Source: Thioalkalivibrio sp. (GTDB lineage: Bacteria; Pseudomonadota; Gammaproteobacteria; Ectothiorhodospirales; Ectothiorhodospiraceae). Taken from it: DNA of 45,508 bases. Under the pieces are notes generated by a model, which saw nothing but the letters and a program-made list of their open reading frames with translations, did no database searches and was not told the DNA's origin. A program made the translations under genes and the position numbers. Every line of letters begins with the position of its first letter. Position 1 is the first letter of the stretch. Of the stretch, positions 35,012 to 36,870 are shown piece by piece. The stretch spans positions 1 through 45,508 of the forward strand of contig SKJG01000157.1 in the NCBI GenBank assembly GCA_007116035.1, read 5' to 3'.

Positions 35012-36037
35012 ATGGAATTCAGCCTGGGTGATTTGGCCGACAGACTGGGCGTCGAACTGAGTGGTGATCCCCGGCGTCCGATTCACGGGATCAGTGCCCT
35101 GGTCTCGAGCAAGCCCGGTACGATCAGCTTTCTGGCGCATTCCCGGAATCGTCACCATCTACGCGGGACCCGTGCCGCCGCGGTCATCCTGACGCAGGAG
35201 GAACGCCAGCACTGTCCGGTCGATGCGCTCATCAGTGCGACCCCCTATCTCTGTTATGCCCGCCTCACCGCACTGTTTGCCCCACGATTTGCTGCCGCTG
35301 AGCCCATTCATCCGAGCGCCGTGGTCGATGCCGGCGCCAGCCTGGGCCCGGGGGTTCGGATCAGTGCCAATGCGGTGGTCGCCGACGGGGTGATCCTGGG
35401 CGAGGGGGTGGAGATCGGCGCCGGCTCTGTGGTGTTGCAGGGCAGCCGGATCGGTGCCTCCAGCCGTCTCATGCCGAATGTCACCGTCTATCATGACTGT
35501 GTGATTGGGGAACGGACCCTGATCCACAGTGGTGCGGTGATCGGCAGCGACGGCTTCGGGTTCGCCCCGGATGGCAAGGAGTGGGTCAAGATCCACCAAC
35601 TGGGCCGGGTCGTGATCGGCAATGACGTCGAGATCGGGGCCAATACCTGTGTCGACAGGGGTGCCATCGAAGACACGCTGATCGGCGATGGTGCCAAGCT
35701 CGACAACCTGATCCAGGTGGCGCACAACGTCAAGGTGGGCGCCCGTACGGTCATGGCCGGCTGCGTGGGGATCGCCGGGAGCGTGGATATCGGCGAGGAC
35801 TGCGCGCTGGGCGGTGGCGTCGGCGTTGCCGGTCACCTGAATATTCCCCCCGGCACCACGATCATGGGGATGTCTCTGGTGAGCAGTTCGCCGCCTGAGC
35901 CGGGTGTCTATGCCGGAGGTCTGCCGGCAGCGAAGCGCGGAGACTGGCAACGCAATGCATTGCGCTTCCGTCAGCTCGATGCCCTCGCGAAGCGTCTCGC
36001 CAAGCTGGAAAAGGCGCTGGAAGAAGGGCGGACCTGA
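35012..36037 (+). CDS. lpxD: UDP-3-O-acylglucosamine N-acyltransferase LpxD
   Basis: 341-residue hexapeptide-repeat acyltransferase that adds the N-linked 3-hydroxyacyl chain in lipid A synthesis. N-terminal uridine-binding domain (about 1-100, GISALVSSKPGTISFLAHSR), then the left-handed beta-helix of I-G-x-x-x-x repeats (about 105-305) with the catalytic His in LIQVAHNVKVGARTVMAG, then a C-terminal helix (LAKRLAKLEKALEEG). Length matches E. coli LpxD (341). It stands alone instead of in the usual bamA-skp-lpxD-fabZ-lpxA-lpxB row, so a second lpxD may exist elsewhere. Confidence 0.95.
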   Translation: MEFSLGDLADRLGVELSGDPRRPIHGISALVSSKPGTISFLAHSRNRHHLRGTRAAAVILTQEERQHCPVDALISATPYLCYARLTALFAPRFAAAEPIHPSAVVDAGASLGPGVRISANAVVADGVILGEGVEIGAGSVVLQGSRIGASSRLMPNVTVYHDCVIGERTLIHSGAVIGSDGFGFAPDGKEWVKIHQLGRVVIGNDVEIGANTCVDRGAIEDTLIGDGAKLDNLIQVAHNVKVGARTVMAGCVGIAGSVDIGEDCALGGGVGVAGHLNIPPGTTIMGMSLVSSSPPEPGVYAGGLPAAKRGDWQRNALRFRQLDALAKRLAKLEKALEEGRT

Positions 36038-36293: not shown

Positions 36294-36743
36294 TCAGGCC
36301 GCGTACCGGGCCTTGGCTTCGCGAGCCGCCTTGGCCTCGGCTTCGGAGTAGGCCTTGCCGGACCACAGCATCTCGTAGGCGATCTCCTCGTTGCCGTTTT
36401 CGCAGAGGTCGAGCACCTCGCGGAATAGCGGCTGGAAGGTCTCGCTGCGGTGCGATGCCTCGTGTTCCTCGAACGACCTCCAGAACGTGATGATCAGGGC
36501 CTCCTTGTCCTTCAAGGGGCTGTCCACGGGCTGGCCTATGGTGGAGCCCTCGTTCGATACGGCTCCGGAATTCATGGCCACGAACCCGCCGACAAAGCCG
36601 GTGTCGGAGTGGTAGGTCTTCACGTTCTCGCAGAGCATCGCAACGCGCTCCTGGAGGTCGTCGACCGTGTATTCCGGCTTGATGATCACGCGATTGAGGG
36701 TCACGACACCATCGGGCGGGAAGTTGCTGATGAGCTGACTCAT
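36294..36743 (-). CDS. half-size sulfur oxygenase reductase-like protein
   Basis: 149-residue protein, no signal peptide. The central block TFWRSFEEHEASHRSETFQP followed by LFR matches the iron-site segment of sulfur oxygenase reductase (SOR), whose archaeal form reads TFWKxWKDHEExHxQ...LFR. From this, His94 and His98 would be the two His iron ligands and Glu120 (in EEIAYEML) the third. The upstream block TGFVGGFVAMNSG matches PGFVGF of SOR, with Cys38 near the place of the essential Cys31. Cys114 matches Cys104. SOR is about 310 residues; only the first half is present here, and the C-terminal end is a helical, Ala-rich tail. Strong ribosome site (GGAGG) before ATG 36743. Enzyme activity is inference; a plain ABM-like dimeric barrel protein is the alternative. 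Confidence 0.6.
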   Translation of the reverse strand: MSQLISNFPPDGVVTLNRVIIKPEYTVDDLQERVAMLCENVKTYHSDTGFVGGFVAMNSGAVSNEGSTIGQPVDSPLKDKEALIITFWRSFEEHEASHRSETFQPLFREVLDLCENGNEEIAYEMLWSGKAYSEAEAKAAREAKARYAA

Positions 36744-36803
36744 GACTGCCTCCTTTTCGGCAACAAGCCCCATGTGGGGCGTTTCAGTACTTGATTGACT
36801 GCT

Positions 36804-36831
36804 AATATAAATGACCTAGTAGAATAGTCAA
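36804..36831 (-). promoter_or_regulatory. sigma-70 promoter of the SOR-like gene
   Basis: On the minus strand TTGACT (36826-36831) and TATATT (36804-36809) are separated by 16 bases, a near-consensus housekeeping promoter about 60 bases ahead of the ATG at 36743. It is among the best promoters visible in the window and suggests strong expression. Confidence 0.65.
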
Positions 36832-36870
36832 GAATTCCCCTGCGGCTTGCGGCGCATTACACTCCCCACC

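Follow-up and report, generated by a model that had tools for sequence, protein, structure and literature searches.

A stand-alone half-size relative of sulfur oxygenase reductase, a candidate sulfur-oxidation protein of bacteria and phages

The window (the whole stretch of Thioalkalivibrio DNA analysed, 45,508 nucleotides) carries a 149-codon gene whose product, judged from its sequence, is related to the N-terminal half of sulfur oxygenase reductase (SOR) and stands alone as a single domain. We regard it as very probable that the protein is of this single-domain SOR type, and it is likely an overlooked part of microbial sulfur oxidation. Many chemolithotrophic bacteria and symbionts oxidise sulfur in the cytoplasm by the reverse Dsr (rDsr) or the sHdr route, in which the core redox enzymes are Fe-S proteins; a conserved SOR-like single-iron protein controlled by an Fe-S-stress switch would give this pathway its missing O2-linked branch.

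The gene and its relatives

The initial annotation had described a 149-residue protein at this place, with a promoter and a ribosome site of its own. We recovered all three elements, which are given here together with the codons of the predicted active site and the neighbouring genes.

36294..36743, minus strand: half-size SOR-like gene of type A, 149 codons plus stop, ATG at 36743
36630..36632, minus strand: codon of C38, equivalent of the essential SOR Cys31 (invariance; Cys-to-Cys in hhalign, one residue off in HMMER)
36462..36464, minus strand: codon of H94, equivalent of the SOR iron ligand His86 (alignments, invariance, PMC7398979)
36450..36452, minus strand: codon of H98, equivalent of the SOR iron ligand His90 (alignments, invariance, PMC7398979)
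36384..36386, minus strand: codon of E120, equivalent of the SOR iron ligand Glu114 (HMMER against 6m35, invariance)
36749..36755, minus strand: ribosome-binding site AAGGAGG, read from the sequence, five bases before the ATG
36804..36831, minus strand: sigma-70-type promoter TTGACT-16-TATATT, 10/12 matches
36810..36834, minus strand: IscR-type operator candidate overlapping the promoter, a weaker version of a motif that relatives conserve
35012-36037, plus strand: lpxD (Pfam)
read from 36871, plus strand: mazG (Pfam)

The half-size gene is solitary, flanked by lpxD and mazG, and its promoter diverges from mazG. The promoter-like pattern was found once, against 0.2 expected in shuffles. The motifs described earlier in the protein, namely TFWRSFEEHEASHR, LFR, C114 and EEIAYE, are all present in the described order, as is GFVGG at residues 49-53 with C38 upstream of it. 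When the 149-aa protein was used as query, near-full-length matches were obtained in 25 of 40 genomes, its own included; because of these matches and of a median dN/dS of 0.12, the open reading frame is a real gene. The half-size genes are under purifying selection, the value of 0.12 being the median over 36 pairs of nine type-A genes and the corresponding figure for the phage copies being 0.07 over 28 pairs.

Within the same genus the gene was carried by 21 of 25 genomes (own included). The four misses were all genomes of at most 80% completeness, and every searched same-genus genome of at least 90% completeness has the gene. A survey of genomes for other half-length members had been suggested, and it did find them: a sample drawn from the whole class gave matches at E<=1e-3 in 74 of its 369 genomes. 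Complete half-size members measure 123-170 aa. Two subfamilies separate in the sample: type A, present in 50 genomes, has 64-100% identity to the query and about 149 aa, and type B, present in 25, has 31-42% identity and about 130 aa. Both types occur together in five genomes, so that 70 genomes carry A or B; the type-A pieces in G220 and G091 and the weak matches in G155 and G312 are excluded from these counts. A scan of named genomes yielded at least 562 relatives among at least 591 stretches, of which the best 80 were kept, and the matches listed include Thioalkalivibrio, Thiobacillus, Sedimenticola, Candidatus Thiodiazotropha, Sulfuriferula and Gallionellaceae.

Relation to full-length SOR

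A profile search had been named as a check on the SOR comparison, and its outcome was divided. SOR models were the best hits of the 149-aa protein in the PF07682 and NF047630 searches, but taken alone the protein reached neither cut-off, with 14.5 bits against PF07682 (E=0.016; cut-off 25 bits) and 15.1 bits against NF047630 (cut-off 400). Across 36 family members, PF07682 matched 28 at E<=1 (best 1.1e-4) and NF047630 matched 21 (best 1.4e-5); the ABM family PF03992 matched 13 at E<=1 (best 0.0053) and PF13826 nine (best 9.8e-4). With the family as query, the claim of an SOR-like, single-domain protein was supported. The best match of the family profile among PDB sequences was SOR (6m35, E=1.7e-6), with triosephosphate isomerase as the next unrelated family at 0.0035 and IsdI at 0.48, and a broader family profile placed SOR at 1.9e-5 and IsdI at 0.19. 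The triosephosphate isomerase and QueF sequence hits were regarded as chance. Moreover, hhalign of the family against 13 SOR N-halves returned a probability of 95.8 (E=7.9e-9), while 60 column-shuffled nulls reached at most 1.1 (E 0.047) and the reversed profile 0.4. The half-size family met the SOR C-half at E=0.037, and the two SOR halves met each other at 2e-4. The profile built from viral and type-B members alone placed SOR at E=0.27 only; among 24 of these members, weak Pfam matches at E<=0.1 were to PF13826 in 11, to PF13816 in five and to SOR in one.

Across all 162 distinct complete sequences compared, 129 of them genomic and 33 viral (the incomplete viral ORFs L232, L269 and L270 being omitted), C38, H94, H98 and E120 never vary, and neither do N17 and W88. 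hhalign puts Asn17, Cys38, Trp88, His94 and His98 on the matching SOR residues, aligning C38 Cys-to-Cys where the HMMER alignment is one residue off. The hhalign alignment ends before E120, which HMMER (6m35) places on Glu114 of the S. tokodaii SOR; of the two adjacent Glu, E119 is variable and E120 is the sole invariant one. The iron ligands of SOR are His86, His90 and Glu114, and in the S. tokodaii enzyme the substitutions H86A, H90A, E114A and C31A each abolish activity (PMC7398979). The iron site had been called intact in the initial annotation, and the alignments uphold this at the sequence level, since H94, H98 and E120, together with C38, would correspond to the essential residues of SOR. 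Where SOR has Cys101 and Cys104, the half-size family has a single Cys, C114, kept in 157 of the 162 sequences, which hhalign assigns to the first of the two and HMMER sets beside Cys104.

The half-size family thus resembles SOR in the N-half fold, in the essential Cys, in the two His and the Glu by alignment, in the Asn of strand 1 and the Trp of strand 3, and in its occurrence in sulfur oxidisers. It differs in length and architecture, SOR having about 310 aa and two domains and the half-size proteins 149 or about 130 aa and one domain, and it stays below both curated SOR cut-offs. Full SOR assembles into a hollow 24-mer and disproportionates sulfur in an O2-dependent reaction. It is mostly found without full SOR and with rDsr or sHdr, and it also occurs on phage contigs. 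In searches of the open PMC literature, no listed paper dealt, by its title or abstract opening, with a half-size, single-domain or phage SOR.

The AlphaFold model (pLDDT 90.2, pTM 0.80) has the element order beta-alpha(C38)-beta-beta-alpha(H94,H98)-alpha-beta(E120), and according to it the protein is an alpha+beta barrel (ferredoxin-like) domain. VIA, in which 1000 chains were re-aligned with SOR among them, gave its highest Z of 14.3 to SnoaB and other ABM-type proteins; SOR 2cb2 scored Z 11.5 with an rmsd of 2.4 over 123 residues, and the model was aligned to the C-half of SOR (125-301), not to the N-half. The 50 best PDB rows of Foldseek contained no SOR and were instead ABM proteins, IsdG, polyketide cyclases and other alpha+beta barrels, with IsdG and IsdI at ranks 5 and 6. 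The fold alone thus does not single out SOR; it is the sequence that does. A structure search of BFVD returned nothing matching at E<=0.001, and a full SOR (L095) modelled from a single sequence was discarded at pLDDT 35.

A degenerate SOR had also been offered as an explanation, and the presence of the first half alone, in a genome that has a full SOR as well, would suit a decayed, truncated copy. We rejected this reading, which is hardly credible: the full-length SOR of the same genome is separate and lies elsewhere (418 bits), the half-size genes are conserved in length and sequence across many genera with a dN/dS of about 0.1, and only six of the 70 type A/B carriers have a full SOR or a member of a second SOR-like clade, both being absent from the other 64. 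Furthermore, in a tree of 49 rows (unrooted and with long branches) a branch of 100/100 splits the half-size proteins from the 13 SOR N-halves, and the family does not fall within that group.

The part of PMC6382920 covered here reports full SOR in only three Thioalkalivibrio strains. Duplication plus fusion has been described as one way to alpha+beta barrels (PMC4835899), and the half-size family would offer a homodimeric model of how the fused SOR subunit arose. It keeps a VSxxGS stretch like that of the SOR C-half, in a weak alignment, which is only suggestive and would fit an unfused SOR ancestor.

The second SOR-like clade is full-length and comprises L096, L097, L098 and L099 (from G150, G155, G039 and G067). 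Its members score 204-218 bits with PF07682, have 312-336 aa and a CAKCG or CARCG motif, and separate from classic SOR in the tree of N-halves. A type-A half-SOR is also present in three of the four genomes.

Genomic context in bacteria and phages

In the 369-genome sample, dsrA was counted in 118 genomes (112 above the cut-off plus six contig-edge pieces at E<=1e-60, with a piece in G261 at E=6e-33 left uncounted), soxB in 150 and sHdrB2 in 22. As query for sHdr we used the second gene of a CCG-domain pair in the G023 cluster, which we take to be sHdrB2. Either dsrA or sHdrB2 was present in 65 of the 70 type A/B genomes versus 70 of 299 others (p=4e-28, relatedness ignored); the figures were 61 of 70 versus 57 of 299 for dsrA and 63 of 70 versus 87 of 299 for soxB. 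The carriers without counted dsrA or sHdrB2 (G261, G293, G322, G341 and G360) are 55-91% complete, and G261 is the one with the small dsrA piece. The half-size gene is not required for rDsr, because 57 of the 118 dsrA genomes lack both types, although G220 among them has a broken piece and G155 a weak match. A phototrophy test, which asked whether anaerobic phototrophs are without the gene, was uninformative, since none of the 112 dsrA genomes tested (of 118) has PF00124. Two genomes of the same family as the window genome (G130 and G345) have sHdrB2 and soxB without a half-SOR gene.

In G328 a dsr operon contains a type-B gene (L271, 5966-6382), which shares the operon's strand and is placed between dsrP and dsrN, the order being dsrABEFHCMKLJOP, half-size gene, dsrN. 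In this operon dsrA, TusD/dsrE, TusB/dsrH, dsrC, DsrK and DsrO scored above their NCBIfam cut-offs and DsrP below its own (71 of 350 bits), dsrL was identified as an NAD(P)-binding subfamily member and dsrN as CobB, and dsrB, F, M and J were labelled by position. The neighbour taken as dsrN is a cobyrinate a,c-diamide synthase-family gene, and dsrN is presumably the siroheme amidation gene. In a Thiogranum MAG (L166, 5947-9323), a type-A gene is followed by a hemerythrin-domain gene with a four-base overlap and then by dsrA and dsrB; dsrE, F and H were not found by tblastn in this 12-kb locus. A type-A gene beside dsrAB was seen in L166 only, and a dsr operon around type B in L050 only. L052 and L053 were not counted as dsr operons because their nearby DsrC-like genes lack one or both C-terminal Cys. 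Conserved operon partners were not found: the commonest neighbour family occurred in 23 of 88 type-A loci, some of which are duplicates, and no neighbour family occurred in four or more of 20 type-B loci. A type-B gene of the 1.1-Mb genome G310 has a DsrE-family gene and an FAD-dependent oxidoreductase gene in its vicinity. The DsrE/FAD-oxidoreductase/DUF1641 context of L055 was rejected as a general one, being present in one of 20 type-B loci.

A first scan of IMG/VR returned 35 contigs with relatives and a later one 41; these relatives are closest to type B, and ORFs of the half-SOR cluster are present on 39 of the 41. Of these 39, 21 have one or more T4-type core genes (the set consisting of gp32, gp59, DNA end protector, head closure, baseplate and tail genes, with one representative identified per family), and 14 have an IscA-like gene. 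A DsrC/TusE-family gene was found on nine of the 41 contigs, three of the nine having been checked against NCBIfam. Five of these genes stop 121 bases short of the half-SOR ORF. Three others also stop ahead of it, with gaps of 321, 748 and 904 bases, and the ninth is kilobases distant. The eight nearby proteins keep the last Cys and lack the first, a state also described in 112 phage proteins called TusE-like (PMC8190135). All of these genes came by tblastn; a DsrC pattern needing both cysteines matched one implausible ORF only on the phage contigs. Two queries against 50,697 named phage records found no half-SOR, and none was matched in plasmid collections.

These contigs resemble those with known phage sulfur auxiliary metabolic genes (dsrA, dsrC/tusE, soxYZ and soxCD; PMC8190135, PMC4164917) in their dsrC/tusE-family genes, in their IscA-like genes and in the purifying selection of the half-SOR copies. 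They differ in the half-SOR itself, which is not named in the covered parts of PMC8190135 and PMC4164917: the main text of the former contains no word beginning with 'oxygenase', and the latter names a 2OG-Fe(II) oxygenase, not SOR. The half-size family would add a candidate sulfur gene to phages.

Two further observations were made on viral contigs. Nine of them (L204, L206, L208, L209, L210, L211, L225, L229 and L231) have a homologue of the ring-hydroxylating oxygenase alpha subunit next to or near the half-SOR, of which one representative matched PF00848, and each also has an IscA-like gene. Five putatively viral IMG/VR contigs of 24-110 kb (L263, L265, L266, L267 and L268) carry divergent type-B genes, and no member of the nine T4 core families was counted on them; NifU/IscU- and IscA-like genes lie near in four of the five, and L265 and L268 look like the same region.

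Upstream of type-A genes we found TAGTTGACTAATTTACTCAGGTATA. When 5 kb around E. coli iscRSUA were searched with a matrix built from 16 type-A sites, two sites stood out with 32.4 and 30.0 bits, both within the region 83-134 bases upstream of iscR; the best of 100 shuffles reached 10.6. We take these two sites of the iscR promoter to be IscR operators. Congruently, a matrix from the two E. coli sites reached a score of 12 or more in 75 of 105 regions upstream of type-A genes and in 3 of 269 control windows; for a score of 15 or more the counts were 55 and 2. The 105 regions are distinct, not independent lineages, and come from the closest relatives of the query. At score 12 the IscR-like site was not enriched in type B (1 of 20) or in phage genes (1 of 30). 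The site in the window scores 14.8 of 43 bits (15.4 with the E. coli-only matrix), is the best motif hit in the whole window and overlaps the -35 and -10 boxes. By this likeness it is an IscR-type operator candidate of the kind seen at type-A promoters, and its simplest reading would be repression by IscR when Fe-S clusters are plentiful. The site is conserved from Thiobacillus to Thioalkalivibrio, for example in L144, L168 and L133.

Proposed function and its alternatives

The function that we favour, with about an even chance of being right, is that of an O2-dependent single-iron sulfane-sulfur oxygenase, a backup or overflow to rDsr or sHdr that would be switched by Fe-S status. The protein would be a stand-alone alpha+beta barrel domain, very probably a homodimer, in which H94, H98 and E120 may bind one mononuclear non-heme iron. 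C38 may take sulfane sulfur, as a persulfide or polysulfide, as the N-half of SOR does, and O2 would be used to turn the C38-bound sulfur into sulfite in the cytoplasm; we infer this SOR-like chemistry from the residue correspondences. The protein would belong to the machinery of bacteria that oxidise sulfur via reverse Dsr or sHdr, and in type A the IscR-type repressor site may raise expression when Fe-S clusters are short or damaged. Being a single-iron enzyme, it could then act as a relief valve for the Fe-S-rich route. The phage copies, some of them accompanied by DsrC/TusE or IscA-like genes, plausibly keep sulfur oxidation running during infection. The whole picture, in which an IscR-controlled iron sulfur oxygenase forms an Fe-S-free bypass of rDsr/sHdr in aerobic sulfur oxidisers, was taken over by T4-like phages and resembles an unfused homodimeric SOR precursor, is put forward tentatively, and we judge it less likely than not to be right.

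The strongest rival, unlikely as we judge it, is a heme or siroheme monooxygenase, that is, an IsdG-type protein whose task would be the opening of heme or siroheme, or else the handling of siroheme for DsrAB. IsdG has an Asn-Trp-His arrangement with Trp and His ten residues apart, which the invariant N17, W88 and H98 resemble; this triad does not discriminate, because the SOR N-halves carry the same residues. IsdG and IsdI rank high in Foldseek, and the half-size family shares the alpha+beta barrel with them and with ABM proteins (PF03992). At the sequence level the NCBIfam heme-oxygenase PRK13315 matches seven of 36 members (best E=0.0044), but IsdG and IsdI show no significant similarity (best PDB E=0.48 and 0.19), and SOR is ahead of IsdI by about five orders with one profile (1.7e-6 vs 0.48) and four with the other (1.9e-5 vs 0.19). 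The IscR-like site would suit iron management, and one copy adjoins the cobyrinate a,c-diamide synthase-family gene taken as dsrN; yet the distribution of the family follows sulfur oxidation, and C38, H94 and E120, which are likewise invariant and have their equals in SOR, set it apart from IsdG and IsdI.

Less probable again is a sulfur-relay or sensing protein, in which C38 would carry a persulfide and the metal site would be structural or regulatory, without oxygenase activity. The DsrC/TusE-family genes close by in eight phage contigs, the copy within the dsr operon and the DsrE-family protein near the gene in L055 are all consistent with such a role, but a carrier would have no need of all three ligand-type residues of a known oxygenase site, which are invariant here, and C114 is not strictly kept (157/162). 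An ordinary cofactor-free ABM protein acting on an organic substrate or quinone agrees with the highest VIA Z (14.3, SnoaB and other ABM-type proteins) and with the 13 of 36 members matched by PF03992 at E<=1, but is improbable, as its sequence match is weaker than that of SOR (0.0053 vs 1.1e-4), only the fold is shared and the half-size gene is tied to sulfur oxidation.

The single-iron sulfane-sulfur oxygenase that we propose would resemble the persulfide dioxygenases in an O2-dependent oxidation of persulfide sulfur to sulfite on a mononuclear iron. Those enzymes have an unrelated fold, that of the metallo-beta-lactamases, and use glutathione persulfide as substrate.
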